A program made the position numbers and the translations under genes. The notes under the pieces are model-generated. The model worked only from the letters and a program-made list of their open reading frames with translations. It did no database searches and was not told where the DNA came from. From positions 1 to 20,577 of the forward strand of contig JAOZFT010000041.1 of assembly GCA_027492035.1 (NCBI GenBank): a stretch of 20,577 nt of DNA, read 5' to 3'. How positions within the stretch are numbered: the stretch's first letter is position 1; each line of letters starts with the position of its first letter. Of this stretch, positions 5,251 through 19,266 are shown piece by piece. This DNA comes from Thermoproteota archaeon. Its GTDB lineage: Archaea > Korarchaeota > JAOZGF01 > JAOZFZ01.

Positions 5251-5424
5251 TCAGTTTTTGAGACTAGTAAGTATTTTATTCATTAATTTAACAGCCTCTC
5301 TTGCATTTTCTAGGATGTTTCTTGTCTTCTCCTTTGTGAAGGTACCTCAAGGTGTAATTCCCTCCAATGGTCTGCCAGATGAAGATTCAGCTTGTATTTT
5401 GTCTAGAAAAATTTTCCTAAACGT
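5251..5424 (-). pseudogene. HEPN-domain C-terminal relic
   Basis: The frame from 5424 to TGA 5251-5253 reads TFRKIFLDKIQAESSSG, RPLEGITP, a TGA at 5347-5349, then FTKEKTRNILENAREAVKL and a short Lys/Leu tail. The second part has the pattern of the last helices of HEPN proteins (a G-x-F/I-T-K/E-E-x-A-x-x-A-L-x-x-A-R-x-x-V motif). A single CGA-to-TGA change would explain the stop. Only the last third of a HEPN domain is left, with no start codon, and its 5' edge overlaps the 3' end of the ATPase gene by a few bases. HEPN proteins usually pair with a nucleotidyltransferase antitoxin; none is intact here. Confidence 0.5.
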
Positions 5425-6742
5425 TCAGACATCCAAGAAAAACACTTACAGGCACAGCTAAGGGTTCCTCGTTAAATTCCTCTTTGGTTAAAGTTATGAC
5501 ACTTTTAATTTTTCCTACTTTTAACATGGTTATCTTTGGTTTTTTCTTGTATTTCACTTCTATTCCCAATATTTCATCACCAAAAGCTGCTATGTCTATT
5601 TCTCTCTTGTCCTTCCAGTAACCAACTTTGTACCTTCTAGCCAAGTGGGATGCAACTATGCTTTCCACCATTACCGGATCTTCAGGTTTTTTAGTGAAAC
5701 ACCAAAATGAAAAAACTTGGTAGAGAAAGGGATCTGTAATGTGCATCTTTCTCTGCTTGTGGAATACTTCTATTCCCTTGTTGGGATCTATATAGTAAAG
5801 AATCTTTAGGAGAAAGAGTTTTTCCAGTGTATCTATGTAATAGAACACTGTTTTGTGGGATTTAATTTCAAACTCCTTTGCAATCCCATGAAAACTTACT
5901 GTGGATGGAACCTTCTCTATTACGGCTTTAAGGATCCTCTTCATTATGCTTTCGTTTCTTCTTAGCTTTGCAATATCCCCCTTTATCCAGCTTAAATATG
6001 TATCGATCACACCGGTTGAAACCTCATTCCTTTCCAGCAGAGATTTTACAGCTAGGGGAAACCCTCCGCATCGAAGGTAAGATTCAAAAATCTTGTTTAG
6101 CTCATCCAACCAAGGCAAACTCTTTAAGCACGCTTTCCTTATTTCCTCTTTCCTCAAAGTTTTTATTTCCCCTATGTTTTCAAACACTTCCTTATTAACA
6201 ATCCCTATGAATTCCCTGAAGCTTAAAGGATACATAACAAAATCTTTTCCTCCTCCTCTCCTCCCCGGAAAAGTTTCGATTTCCCTTTTGGCAAACATGC
6301 TTAATGACCCTGTTAACACAAGAACGTCATCCTTGAAGTTCCCCATATCAACATGCCACTTTATAGCTCTATACCACTCCCTTGGAAAAGTCACTTCATC
6401 TAAAAGAATAAAAGACGTCTTGATTTTTTCAGCTTCCTTTATTTTCAAGTACTCCCTAATAATTTCATCCAATTCTTTAAAATCAGCCAATTGGTCGCAT
6501 CTAAAATAGAAAATAGCCTTTGGAGTTATTTCTTCCAGTAACCTCTTTACCAAAAGCTTCAATAAAGTAGTTTTACCCACTTGTCTAGGTCCAAAAACAA
6601 AATGGAGAGAATAAGGCTTAACCCCTATTTCCTCAATGATCCGTGGCACCCATTTTATTTTGCTCTCTTTCCACTTCCTGAAATCTTCATCCTTCTCTAT
6701 GTATTCCTCCCCTTTCCACCAGGGATTGTACTCTTCAAGCAT
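5417..6742 (-). CDS. Archaeal AAA ATPase with C-terminal DUF4143 domain
   Basis: A 441-residue, full-length protein. The N-terminal AAA_14 ATPase carries Walker A GPRQVGKTT (51-59), Walker B FILLDEV (111-117) and a sensor-like LTGS (143-146). A linker of helices follows (LPWLDELNKIFESYLRCGG, a hallmark of this family), then a winged-helix-like stretch (GIAKEFEIKSHKTVFYYIDT) and a DUF4143 end with a nuclease-like core (DKREIDIAAFGDEILGIEVKYKK), where D, E and K resemble a PD-(D/E)XK site. The cellular role of this large archaeal family is unsettled; DNA binding and mobility or defence are suggested. ATG 6742 follows a 19-bp palindrome by one base and a TATA-like ATTTAAAT by about 25, so the transcript is probably leaderless and self-repressed (inference). 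Confidence 0.85.
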   Translation of the reverse strand: MLEEYNPWWKGEEYIEKDEDFRKWKESKIKWVPRIIEEIGVKPYSLHFVFGPRQVGKTTLLKLLVKRLLEEITPKAIFYFRCDQLADFKELDEIIREYLKIKEAEKIKTSFILLDEVTFPREWYRAIKWHVDMGNFKDDVLVLTGSLSMFAKREIETFPGRRGGGKDFVMYPLSFREFIGIVNKEVFENIGEIKTLRKEEIRKACLKSLPWLDELNKIFESYLRCGGFPLAVKSLLERNEVSTGVIDTYLSWIKGDIAKLRRNESIMKRILKAVIEKVPSTVSFHGIAKEFEIKSHKTVFYYIDTLEKLFLLKILYYIDPNKGIEVFHKQRKMHITDPFLYQVFSFWCFTKKPEDPVMVESIVASHLARRYKVGYWKDKREIDIAAFGDEILGIEVKYKKKPKITMLKVGKIKSVITLTKEEFNEEPLAVPVSVFLGCLNV

Positions 6743-9524: not shown

Positions 9525-9767
9525 ATGATGGAAAAATCAAAGATTCAAAGAAGGTTCACTTTAACCATTCCAAAATCTATCAGGAAAGCTGCTAGTCTTA
9601 AAGAAGGAGACGTGGTGTACTGGAGTTTTGTAAATGGTAAAATAATTCTCACTAAACCTTCATTCAAGGCTTTCAGGTCCAGATTTAAAGTTAGCTTTAA
9701 AACATTATCTGATGCTGAAAAGGAAATTCTTGACAAAGCTTTCTTAGAAGAGGCATCTAGAAAGTGA
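9525..9767 (+). CDS. vapB: AbrB/MazE-fold antitoxin (VapB)
   Basis: An 80-residue protein with the N-terminal swapped-hairpin AbrB fold: RRFTLTIPKSIRKAASLKEG, then DVVYWSFVNGKIILTKP, the standard antitoxin DNA-binding pattern. The C-terminal 30 residues are charged helix (SDAEKEILDKAFLEEASRK), the part expected to block the toxin site. Two adjacent ATGs (9525, 9528) are possible starts. The stop TGA overlaps the GTG start of the PIN toxin in a GTGA junction, so the pair is coupled. It is expected to repress its own promoter with the toxin as co-repressor. All features look intact, in contrast to the broken VapBC at 12082-12378. Confidence 0.85.
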   Translation: MMEKSKIQRRFTLTIPKSIRKAASLKEGDVVYWSFVNGKIILTKPSFKAFRSRFKVSFKTLSDAEKEILDKAFLEEASRK

Positions 9768-10204
9768 ATTATTTAATTGATTTAAATGTGCTTCTAGCGT
9801 ACTCCTTCGAACTCCACAACGAACATGAAAGTGCAGACAGATTCTTCACCTTAGCTGAAAATGAGGAATGGAGCATTCACTTGTCTTCTATAGCCATATT
9901 AGAAGCCGAAACCTTGTTTCTGTCAGGGAAAGTTAATGTTGAAAGGGAAGAATGGTTAAATTTTATTCATGACATATTAACCTCACCCGTTCTCAGGATT
10001 ATTGAGATTTCACCTAAAATATTTCTCTACCACACCTTTTATTACAGGGGGTATGGAGGAAAATACAGCTACTTTGACTCCTTCCATGTTGCAACAGCCA
10101 GAGAAACATCTCTGCCACTTGCCACGCTTGACAATAAAATATTAGCTGAAAAAACAATAAAAGCAGTCAATTTGAGAGATTTTAAAGGGGTAAAATCAAC
10201 CTAG
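9764..10204 (+). CDS. vapC: PIN-domain ribonuclease toxin (VapC)
   Basis: A 146-residue PIN protein with all four acidic residues visible: D6 (LIDLNVLLA), E47 (AILEAE), D105 (YFDSFHVATA) and D123 (LATLDNKI). VapC proteins cleave RNA, often tRNA or rRNA, with Mg or Mn; the target here is unknown. GTG 9764 overlaps the antitoxin stop. The length fits the family (about 130-150). An aromatic-rich loop (IFLYHTFYYRGYGGKYSYF) before the third acidic residue is notable. The operon ends here; the next gene has its own promoter. Confidence 0.87.
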   Translation: MNYLIDLNVLLAYSFELHNEHESADRFFTLAENEEWSIHLSSIAILEAETLFLSGKVNVEREEWLNFIHDILTSPVLRIIEISPKIFLYHTFYYRGYGGKYSYFDSFHVATARETSLPLATLDNKILAEKTIKAVNLRDFKGVKST

Positions 10205-14616: not shown

Positions 14617-14711
14617 CTTTATAAACATTCCAAAAAGGTTAAGTTTGTTACTTCAATTGTTTATCTGAGGTTGGTTGGGAGGTTAAGTGTTACCTTAGTT
14701 TTTGGTGGTGA
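14617..14711 (+). promoter_or_regulatory. CARF gene promoter, leader repeats and ribosome site
   Basis: CTTTATAAAC (about 14617-14626) is a near-ideal archaeal TATA box. Downstream in the likely leader are two similar direct elements, GGTTAAGTTTGTTAC (14637-14651) and GGTTAAGTGTTAC (14681-14693), 44 bp apart. GGTGGTGA at 14704-14711 is a strong ribosome site five bases before ATG 14717. The repeats may bind a regulator; this is inference. Confidence 0.5.
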
Positions 14712-14716
14712 AAAGT

Positions 14717-15388
14717 ATGGATTTATCCCTTGCTGTAAAGAATATTGGGAAAGTTAAGGAGGTTAGTTTAACTGAATTAGAGGAAATGGCTGTAAGGGTT
14801 TCTAACGAATTGAAGAGAATGATTAAGGAGGAGTTGCTAGGTAAAGTGGAGGATTTCTATGCTGGTGCTGCTTTTCATTTAAGTTTAGAAATTTTTAGGA
14901 GACGTGTTGAGAGGGAACTTAACGTTTTATTTCCTGCAGGTGAACCTGACGCTGTAATTGCTACTTTAGGTTTCACTCCTCAACCTCTTATTTTGCTTCT
15001 ATATGCCTTGCATCCCCGTTACTTCTTTGTTTTAGCTTCCCACGAAACAGCCCCTGTTTCTAGCCACGTTCTCAAGTTTACTGACGAACTTGGTTGGGAA
15101 AGTTTTCGTTACCAAGTTTTCACTGTTAAAAAGGATGACCCTGTCAGTATTGAAGAAGAAGCAGGGAAAGCTTTAAAACTTCTTCTTGAAGAAAAGGAAA
15201 CAGTTAATGGTGTTTGTGTAGATATTACAGGTGGAACAAAACTTATGAGTGCAAAAACAGCTGTTTATGTTTACAACAACTTAAGAAATGCTGGTGTCCC
15301 CGTTTATTTGACTTATGTAGCTTCCAACCAAATTTCTCGGACTATCTCTGAACCTGGAAGTGAAAAACTGGTTGTTATGCCCCTTTAA
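14717..15388 (+). CDS. Stand-alone CARF-domain protein (cyclic oligoadenylate sensor)
   Basis: 223 residues from ATG 14717; the frame is open from TTG 14702, but GGTGGTGA overlaps those codons and fits ATG 14717. Residues 1-75 are helical. A Rossmann-like CARF domain follows, with the two ligand loops visible: ATLGFTPQPLILLLYAL (82-98, G-x-T-P-x-P) and VCVDITGGTKLMSAKTAVYV (166-185, D-x-T-G-G-T-K). This pair is typical of CRISPR-associated CARF proteins (Card1/Can2 and relatives) that sense cyclic oligoadenylates made by type III systems. The protein ends right after the fold: there is no HEPN, PD-(D/E)XK or helix-turn-helix domain. No cas gene or CRISPR array is in the window. It could be a ring nuclease, a decoy sensor, or a regulator through its N-terminal helices. 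Confidence 0.75.
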   Translation: MDLSLAVKNIGKVKEVSLTELEEMAVRVSNELKRMIKEELLGKVEDFYAGAAFHLSLEIFRRRVERELNVLFPAGEPDAVIATLGFTPQPLILLLYALHPRYFFVLASHETAPVSSHVLKFTDELGWESFRYQVFTVKKDDPVSIEEEAGKALKLLLEEKETVNGVCVDITGGTKLMSAKTAVYVYNNLRNAGVPVYLTYVASNQISRTISEPGSEKLVVMPL

Positions 15389-15998: not shown

Positions 15999-16611
15999 AT
16001 GGATAAAATAGTTGTGTTTGACATGGAAAGCGTCTTAATAAATGGTGAGTATCTTTCCATGCCTTGCTGAAGCAGTGAACCCTGAACTAAAAAGTAAAAT
16101 AGAAGTAACAACAGAACTTGCTTTACAGGGGAAAATAGACTGGGTTACTGGGTTAAAGAAAAGGATTAATCTGCTTAAAAACATTGTCGATAAGGACTTA
16201 GCATTAAAAGTTGCATCTAAATTAACCTATGTTAAAGGAGCCAAGAAAACCTTGAAAAAATTGAAGAAAAGAGGATACCACCTAGTTGTGATAACAGGGG
16301 GTTTCGATATCGTAGCGAAAAGACTTGAAAAGGAATTTAAGATAGAGGTGATATGTAACGAATTAGTTTTTGACGGAAACAAACTTGTCGATGTCAAAAT
16401 AAAAGTTGCAGATAAATCACTGGTTTTCAAGGAAAGATTTCACTCTGCACCCTACGCGGTAATCGGGGATGGAGCTAACGACTTAAACTTAATGAAAGAG
16501 GCAAAGTTAAAGATAGGTTACAACCCGAAACACATAGTTAAACAATACCTTGAAAAAAACAACGGAAAAATAATTTATAACCTGGAAGACTTGTTAAAGA
16601 TATTAAAATAA
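15999..16611 (+). pseudogene. HAD-family phosphatase (SerB-like) broken by one frameshift
   Basis: The natural start is ATG 15999, five bases or fewer after a near-perfect GAGGTGGTGA. It encodes MDKIVVFDMESVLINGEYL, HAD motif I (usually DxD; here D8-M-E10), but that frame stops at TGA 16068-16070. A second frame, open from ATG 16042 to TAA 16611, carries the rest: PCLAEAV, a helical cap, motif II VVITGGFD, motif III Lys region and motif IV IGDGANDLNLM. Removing one T from CTTTCC near 16054 joins the two as GEYLPCLAEA. The joined protein has about 204 residues, like phosphoserine phosphatase-type HADs. If translated only from 16042, it lacks the nucleophile and would be inactive. A recent mutation, a sequencing error or programmed shifting are the options. 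Confidence 0.75.
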
Positions 16612-17788: not shown

Positions 17789-18553
17789 TTAAAGTAGACT
17801 TGTTTCTATGAGTTTCTCTATTTCTCCTTTTACTTTCTTGAATGAAGGTAAATTTGTAACTAGAGGTTTTAGTTCTGTCCCCCACTTGATTTTTACATCT
17901 TCTAAGCACATTAAAAACCTTTTTTCATCGAATTTCAGGTTGTAATACCCCAGTTTTTTCTCCACTATGCTTTTCTTGGCTTTTACTCCTTTCCTTAACA
18001 GGAACCAAAGGTCGTACATGTCTCTTGCCCTTGATCTTCTAACCATTGCTCTAATTTTCTCTGCTAAAATTTCCTCTAGGTGCATCACAGGTAGAAAATA
18101 GGGTCTTAAATCAGGGTAAACAGGGATTACCTCTATAACTTTAGGCTCTAAAAGTAAGTCTTTCCTTAAACTGATTTCCATCCTTAAATTTGAAATGGTT
18201 TTTTCAGTTCCATCATATAAAGGCCCCTTAACCTTTAAAGTGATGTTTTTGGAGTGTCTTTTCTCTTCTACCTTGAACAGTTCACATGGGAAACCGAAGT
18301 TTGTTATGTCTCTGGAAACCTTTTCAATAGATTCCCTGATTTCATTGATGGTTAATGTGAAGTCAAGGCCTATACTGAATCTGTTCAACCCAAATATTTT
18401 TTGCAAAGCTGTTCCACCCTTAAAAACCAGTCCTCTCTTAATTCTTTGCGATAAAAACAAAAGTAGGATATGTTGCAGGTAATCCTTTTCTGTTTGCCAA
18501 ACATTGAAACCGGTAACTTTTGTCAGTTCCGTAAGTTCAACTTTACTCAGCAC
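17789..18553 (-). CDS. abiEii: AbiEii-type nucleotidyltransferase toxin
   Basis: 254 residues, COG2253/DUF1814 family, the toxin half of the AbiE type IV toxin-antitoxin system used in phage abortive infection. Seen: FKGGTALQKIF (44-54, the G-G-T/S nucleotide loop), RFSIGLDFTL (58-67), and the C-terminal HLEEILAEKIRAMVRR with RARDMYDLWFLL, the two later motifs. In relatives the second motif is S-E-D-L/I-D; here it is S60-I-G62-L-D64, so one of the two metal-binding aspartates is missing. This may make the enzyme inactive. GTG 18553 overlaps the antitoxin stop by one base (TAGTG), so translation is coupled. Length is near the family norm, with no truncation. Co-transcribed with abiEi. Confidence 0.83.
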   Translation of the reverse strand: MLSKVELTELTKVTGFNVWQTEKDYLQHILLLFLSQRIKRGLVFKGGTALQKIFGLNRFSIGLDFTLTINEIRESIEKVSRDITNFGFPCELFKVEEKRHSKNITLKVKGPLYDGTEKTISNLRMEISLRKDLLLEPKVIEVIPVYPDLRPYFLPVMHLEEILAEKIRAMVRRSRARDMYDLWFLLRKGVKAKKSIVEKKLGYYNLKFDEKRFLMCLEDVKIKWGTELKPLVTNLPSFKKVKGEIEKLIETSLL

Positions 18554-19266
18554 TACTCCAGCACCTCATTAATTATTAGTTTCCATTTTCTGTTTTTAAC
18601 CCCTGTTGAAGGGGAGAATGGGTTTAGTTTCACAAAATTCCCCGTTAAACCTTTTTTAGTGCGGGTGGAGATATCTACGCCTTTCAACTCTAATAGATAA
18701 CCTAGTCTTTTCAGTAAGGCGTCTGACCTCATCCTTAATGCATAATTTAAAGTTTTATCTAGATCCAGATTTGAATGGGTTAAAGCAAAAAATGTTTCTT
18801 GGATAGGGCAATATTTCGGTAGATATAAGCTGTCAATGATTGCTTTTTCCACTTCTGCGACAAACAGAAACTTATTGTTTAAAATTTCCCTTTTAAACCC
18901 GAAAAATCTATGCTTTTGAAACTTTACAAACTTTATGGAGGTGTTGTTGCAGCGAATTTCCTTTCTCTGCTTTAATGAAACCACAAAATAGGTGTTAGGT
19001 ATTTGTGTTGTTAACTTATGGTAGCTGAGAGCAGAAAGAAACGAAATGTAAGAGGGAAAAACCACGTTAGATGCAACTAAAAAGGGGTTAGACTCGATGA
19101 AATACTTGCCCTTTTCTAATCTAAACAATAAACCCTTCTTAACTAAACGGTTTATAAAAACCTTTGTATATCCTTCACTCTTATTCAAAATTTTAACGAG
19201 ATCAGGAAATTCAAAAACAGCTCTCCTAGAGTTACGCAGGACACTTAGAAACTTATAACTTTTCAT
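18553..19266 (-). CDS. abiEi: AbiEi-type antitoxin / transcriptional regulator
   Basis: 237 residues. The N-terminal 60 residues form a winged helix (FEFPDLVKILNKSEGYTKVF, INRLVKKGLLFRLEKGKYFI), the DNA-binding part known from AbiEi. Then come VVFPSYISFLSALSYHKLTT and, near 150, FVAEVEKAIIDSLYLP, hallmarks of COG5340/AbiEi proteins, and a C-terminal domain that counteracts the toxin. It lies directly upstream of abiEii with a one-base overlap. ATG 19266 is about 22 bases from a TATA-like AATATAAAAA, so a leaderless transcript is likely. Family members repress their own operon by binding inverted repeats; a perfect one lies at 19299-19316. Confidence 0.82.
   Translation of the reverse strand: MKSYKFLSVLRNSRRAVFEFPDLVKILNKSEGYTKVFINRLVKKGLLFRLEKGKYFIESNPFLVASNVVFPSYISFLSALSYHKLTTQIPNTYFVVSLKQRKEIRCNNTSIKFVKFQKHRFFGFKREILNNKFLFVAEVEKAIIDSLYLPKYCPIQETFFALTHSNLDLDKTLNYALRMRSDALLKRLGYLLELKGVDISTRTKKGLTGNFVKLNPFSPSTGVKNRKWKLIINEVLE

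Follow-up and report, generated by a model that had tools for sequence, protein, structure and literature searches.

A CARF-only protein of the Csm6 lineage in a Thermoproteota archaeon as a candidate for removal of cyclic oligoadenylate

Background

Signalling in type III CRISPR immunity is toxic and has to be brought to an end. The CARF domains of the effectors Csm6 and Csx1 are reported to degrade their own activator (PMC12409355), with cleavage by the Csm6 domain taking place within the full protein (PMC12409355, PMC10897365), and the activator is also cleaved by CARF proteins that carry no toxic domain, namely Crn1 (PMC10018336). The sequence G-T-S at motif I has been taken as a sign of this cleavage (PMC10018336). 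Proteins consisting of a CARF domain only, CARF1 ones included, are already catalogued, this architecture having its own PADLOC profile within the same clade (CARF1--CARF, PDLC01794), while Csx15 is a small, effector-free protein of the CARF superfamily that can be found as an orphan away from CRISPR loci.

The original prediction singled out a stand-alone CARF protein encoded within 20,577 bp of archaeal DNA, hereafter the window, as a candidate for an undescribed role. With stand-alone CARF ring nucleases (Crn1) and sponges of cyclic oligoadenylate (cOA; Csx15) both known, this wording is too strong. Most likely the role is of a known kind and it is the type of protein that is unlisted: the signal-binding half of Csm6 without its ribonuclease half.

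Coding evidence

The protein, here named P0001, is the product of a real gene (Table 1). Its frame is intact over 223 aa, from the ATG at 14717 to the stop codon at 15386-15388; an open frame of this length would be expected by chance with p ~2e-7, and its codon score of 0.31 lies within the range of real genes of the genome (0.17-0.33), outside which the flanking DNA falls. The Shine-Dalgarno-like octamer upstream of the gene also precedes the ATG at 15999 of the gene downstream. That gene, encoding a HAD phosphatase (15999-16611, + strand), exhibits an apparent frameshift: the frame beginning at this ATG stops at approximately 24 codons and the remainder is in another frame from 16042, reflecting either an assembly indel or a pseudogene.

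No trace of a HEPN domain could be found in any frame of the 600 bp 3' of the P0001 gene, in a search for which the positive control gave 1e-32, and on this basis the suggestion that P0001 is a truncated reading, or the result of an assembly break, was rejected. The claim of a stand-alone CARF protein with no effector domain is hence borne out, the frame being intact and nothing lying past the fold.

Table 1. Positions of the P0001 gene and its features in the window
Feature	Position	Strand	Description and basis
Shine-Dalgarno-like site GGTGGTGA	14704..14711	+	5 nt 5' of P0001 ATG; sequence
CARF-only protein P0001	14717..15388	+	223 aa, Csm6/TIGR02710 (CARF1) lineage, without HEPN; profile, fold and coding score
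N-terminal helices, residues 18-71	14768..14929	+	DSSP on model; superpose on Thermus Csm6 N-terminus; aligned in relatives
CARF domain, residues 77-223, up to stop codon	14945..15385	+	Model; Csm6, Cam1, Can2, Card1 and Crn1 structure matches
Motif I GFTPQP, residues 85-90	14969..14986	+	Equivalent to G58-T59-S60 of Thermus Csm6; alignments; residue roles from PMC10897365
Motif II DITGGTKLM, residues 169-177	15221..15247	+	K175 equivalent to K137 of Thermus Csm6; relatives' alignment

Family assignment and predicted structure

P0001 matches the PADLOC profile CARF1--CARF_HEPN with an E value of 6e-16, as opposed to 5e-5 for CARF1--CARF. As the profile that includes a HEPN domain scores far better than that of the catalogued CARF-only proteins, P0001 looks like a separate HEPN-less derivative. 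The match to Pfam CARF_Card1 (6e-5) is slightly below the cut-off, and that to NCBIfam TIGR02710 (5e-4, 19.1 bits) is far under the curated cut-off of 83.9 bits. HEPN was absent from the Pfam search, neither CARF7 nor CARF_m13 was present among the best 25 of 37 PADLOC matches, and no relative of solved structure was found from sequence alone.

An AlphaFold2 model, based on an alignment with 15 relatives, has a pLDDT of 91.9 and a pTM of 0.87. Its top match among solved folds is Csm6 of Thermus thermophilus (PDB 5FSH, 8JBB; a TIGR02710 or CARF1--CARF_HEPN protein), with a Z score of 19.2 over 186 residues and a sequence identity of ~22%; residues 19-223 of the model superpose on residues -2 to 186 of Csm6. 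Cam1, Can2, Card1 and Crn1 follow, the whole set having Z scores of 12-19. Both the model and these matches indicate a Rossmann-like CARF fold, in which the helix at residues 175-190 is followed by two strands and no further helix. The last CARF strand is the end of the protein, as was originally proposed, and no winged HTH of the Csa3 type is present C-terminal to the CARF domain. By profile and predicted fold, P0001 is therefore a real CARF protein, its best match being to CARF1--CARF_HEPN and the Csm6 fold rather than to a non-CARF Rossmann family.

The helical N-terminus had been interpreted as standing in place of a nuclease or HTH domain. The helices do exist, but because they superpose on the N-terminus of Thermus Csm6 they are Csm6's own, an inherited feature common to Csm6/TIGR02710 proteins rather than a replacement domain; neither does the idea that they form a new surface for a partner hold. 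P0001 ends where Csm6 continues into its 6H and HEPN ribonuclease domains, and only these two are missing. With neither the R-X4-6-H motif of HEPN nor a TIGR02710 score above cut-off, P0001 is not a Csm6 effector.

Crn1 (Sso2081, Sis0455) resembles P0001 in being a CARF protein without a nuclease or toxin domain, in its fold (Z of 12-13) and in the lysine of motif II. However, P0001 lacks the C-terminal helical lid insert of the Sso2081 type, has G-F-T at motif I and, among the PADLOC matches listed, is nearest to CARF1 in sequence, whereas Crn1 belongs to CARF7/CARF_m13 (PMC12409355). It may act like Crn1 without being Crn1. The Csm6-type fold of P0001 also contrasts with that of Csx15, reported to form stacked filaments and to lack one of the canonical CARF strands through loss (PMC13148439).

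The ligand pocket

Both of the predicted CARF ligand loops are present, motif I (G85-F-T-P-Q-P) following strand 1, and motif II, of the form D-x-T-G-G-T-K (here D169-I-T-G-G-T-K-L-M), following strand 4. The D, T, G, G, K and M of motif II are invariant across 16 relatives and are kept in P0001. When the pocket is mapped onto that of Thermus Csm6, the equivalents of G58, E83, T133, G135, K137, Y161 and E179 are identical (G85, E110, T171, G173, K175, Y200 and E216, respectively), and those of S60 and T81 are conservative (T87 and S108). The altered positions are T59, which is F86 in P0001, N164, which is S203 or N204, and the R172/R173 pair, represented by R208 only in a lid loop that is two residues shorter.

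Mutational data for Thermus Csm6 allow these differences to be put in context. Cleavage is abolished in the K137A mutant and in the T59A/S60A double mutant, is not stopped by T59A alone or S60A alone, and is weakened by T81A, Y161A and N164A (PMC10897365). In P0001, the G-F-T of motif I keeps a hydroxyl at the third position (T87) behind the phenylalanine at the second. This phenylalanine also occurs in CARF-only proteins of Lokiarchaeota (G-F-T in L078, G-F-S in L114), and G-F-S is found in other members of the family, full-length CARF-HEPN proteins included; F86 is therefore not a private accident of P0001. The mapping implies that the residues for binding are largely kept and those for cleavage partly altered. 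As judged from its residues, the pocket supports binding and may also permit cleavage.

Genomic context

The window is the whole of contig C32 of a 1.87-Mb archaeal assembly that is 93% complete, and the P0001 gene lies 5.2 kb from one of its ends. Its neighbours encode a pyruvate kinase, the HAD phosphatase, an FMN oxidoreductase and, at a distance, an AbiE pair, in which the AbiEii toxin and AbiEi antitoxin constitute a type IV toxin-antitoxin system (17789-19266, - strand). Elsewhere in the window are a PIN-domain toxin preceded by its MazE/AbrB-type antitoxin (9525-10204, + strand) and an AAA_14-DUF4143 ATPase (5417-6742, - strand).

The original statement that there is no CRISPR locus is true of this contig but not of the genome, in which the search for a type III cas10 gene that it recommended was successful. 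Contig C37 contains a type III locus encoding an 880-aa Cas10 with HD and GGDD motifs, several Csm3-like RAMPs, Csx1 with the ring nuclease Csx3 (Crn3) adjoining it, a protein with a C-terminal PD-DExK-like domain and no assignment for its N-terminal half (L006:8766-10049, - strand), and Cas6, next to which is an HTH-CARF protein of the CARF_m5 type (L006:385-1041, - strand). An oligoadenylate cyclase is thus encoded by the same genome as a largely intact pocket. No Cas1 was found in the assembly, and there were no Rfam matches in either the window or contig C37. The two contigs share no end words, and a physical join between them was rejected. No second member of the P0001 family is encoded in the genome, where the sole further match, a weak one, is to the HTH-CARF protein.

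Two further features of the C37 locus were observed. An ATPase similar in appearance to that in the window adjoins it (L007:9397-10896, - strand), and two copies of a 108-nt element (L006:3443-3550 and L006:8591-8698), 78% identical and 5.1 kb apart, flank the part that contains Csx1 and Csx3.

Related proteins and the loss of HEPN

The relatives of P0001, in both archaea and bacteria, are nearly all CARF-6H-HEPN proteins of ~400-570 aa, and the R-X4-6-HG of HEPN was present at 33 of 35 family loci in the Loki and Deinococcus classes. P0001 itself had no match in 28 other genomes of the same phylum, and no close orthologue was found among the sequences searched. Three other members without HEPN were detected. 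The first (L021) is in a Thermaceae type III-B operon, alongside Cas10 (GGDD), RAMP genes, a CARF-HEPN protein, Csx1 and Cas1; the second (L039/L078) is beside a Cas10 with NGDD in a Lokiarchaeota genome; and the third (L083/L114), which comes from another genome of the Lokiarchaeota class, adjoins Cas6, Cas10d and a CARF_m5 gene, the last of these (L114:8509-9027, - strand) directly upstream of it. The same pair of CARF proteins, CARF_m5 and a HEPN-less member of this family, is hence found in two distant genomes, that of P0001 and one of Lokiarchaeota.

The two Lokiarchaeota proteins are 50% identical, and a dN of 0.37 relative to a dS of 2.07 (dN/dS ~0.18, with dS near saturation) implies that they are under purifying selection. 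In a tree of the family, L021 groups with CARF-HEPN proteins of Meiothermus and L039 with those of Lokiarchaeota; HEPN has therefore been lost at least twice. P0001, on a long branch (2.51 against a median of 0.73) of tentative placement, may represent a third loss. P0001 and L021 terminate at nearly the same column of the alignment, with the Lokiarchaeota proteins ~20-25 residues longer.

Several other short sequences were not counted as CARF-only proteins: L045, L046 and L116 are cut short by the ends of their contigs, and L115, which ends inside the CARF fold, is a broken fragment of Thermus Csm6. Archaeal matches of ~230 aa, among them L004, L063, L065 and L066, have the appearance of CARF-HTH proteins of the Csa3 regulator type and were set aside. 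An origin of P0001 as a phage or plasmid anti-CRISPR was also rejected, there being no relative in the phages or viral contigs scanned; the plasmid matches consisted of a Meiothermus CARF protein belonging to TIGR02710 and one at chance level. One Lokiarchaeota member of the family (L024:4113-5459, + strand) has 240 C-terminal residues that are not HEPN and have no Pfam match, possibly a new effector.

Proposed function and alternatives

The most economical interpretation is that P0001 is a free cOA-binding dimer which lowers the level of the signal, through either slow cleavage or sequestration. It would be an effector of the Csm6/TIGR02710 type reduced to its sensor, having kept the N-terminal helices and CARF domain and lost 6H and HEPN. 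Predicted here as a monomer, it would form the usual CARF dimer and bind cOA produced by the type III Cas10 of its own genome, most likely cA4, as for its nearest solved relative. Slow cleavage of this ligand in the pocket would be the ring-nuclease reaction of Csm6 CARF domains, and P0001 would thereby serve in trans to turn off the Csx1 ribonuclease. Removal of cOA is favoured by the match to the Csm6 fold, the largely conserved pocket, the presence of Cas10 (GGDD) and Csx1 in the genome, and the HEPN-less relatives in or beside type III loci of Thermaceae and two Lokiarchaeota, the latter pair under purifying selection. Against the proposal of slow cleavage are the lack of linkage between the gene and the type III locus, the lack of a close orthologue among the genomes searched, and the Csx3 already present beside Csx1; in a survey that went no further than 6 kb from type III loci, only ~4% of the loci with a ring nuclease had two (PMC12409355). 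Of the two functions originally offered, a ring nuclease ending signalling is supported as regards cOA removal, which is the best fit; the G-F-T of motif I and the short lid loop with its one arginine speak against cleavage. The other, a switch for neighbouring genes, is disfavoured because the relatives lie beside Cas10 or in type III operons and not with the neighbours seen in this window.

Whether the signal is removed by slow cleavage, with P0001 a HEPN-less dimeric ring nuclease, we regard as evenly balanced. A dimer that binds cOA and cannot cut it, buffering the cell against low-level or accidental activation, is a distinctly less probable alternative, albeit one that would explain why the binding residues are better kept than those for cleavage. 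A dedicated ring nuclease, Csx3, being already available is consistent with this, and some Csx15 proteins, including one orphan, are such non-enzymatic sponges (PMC13148439); on the other hand, type III systems produce so much cOA that sponging may be fruitless (PMC13148439), and Thermus Csm6 still cleaves with T59A alone, while T87 provides a hydroxyl at the S60 position. It is unlikely that P0001 is instead a signal adaptor, the cOA-bound CARF domain acting on a partner such as the HTH-CARF regulator CARF_m5. That regulator is encoded in the type III locus of the same genome and, in L114, immediately upstream of the gene for the CARF-only protein, but it is not linked to P0001, none was seen in the Thermaceae operon, and the N-terminal helices are inherited from Csm6 and not an added docking domain.

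We consider it similarly improbable that P0001 is a Csm6 truncated recently, no longer functional and in the course of being lost. As a single gene on a long branch, lacking both a close orthologue and linkage to the type III locus, with a gene after it that looks frameshifted, it has some of the expected attributes, and a decayed Csm6 fragment is known from a Thermus relative (L115). Nevertheless, its frame and codon bias are intact, the invariant residues of the pocket are kept and the 600 bp beyond it are free of HEPN sequence; it stops at a domain boundary, where L115 stops within the CARF fold. The same or nearly the same end point is shared by three relatives, including the two that are under purifying selection.

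Conclusions

Cleavage or sequestration of cOA by P0001 would be activity of a familiar kind, but no description of recurrent HEPN-less derivatives of Thermus-type Csm6 beside Cas10 in unrelated lineages was found in the literature consulted for comparison. We tentatively suggest, with the balance tilted slightly against it, that HEPN-less Csm6 sensors constitute an unlisted class of proteins that remove cOA in type III immunity, a class that has evolved recurrently, with two or more origins from ribonuclease effectors, and has been missed by surveys of ring nucleases. They would be missed because models of effectors match them and because their genes can lie far from a CRISPR locus. If effectors do turn into off-switches time and again through loss of the ribonuclease half, annotation by the best match to Csm6 labels suppressors as toxins, and surveys that extend no more than a few kb from Cas10 arrive at too low a count of them.
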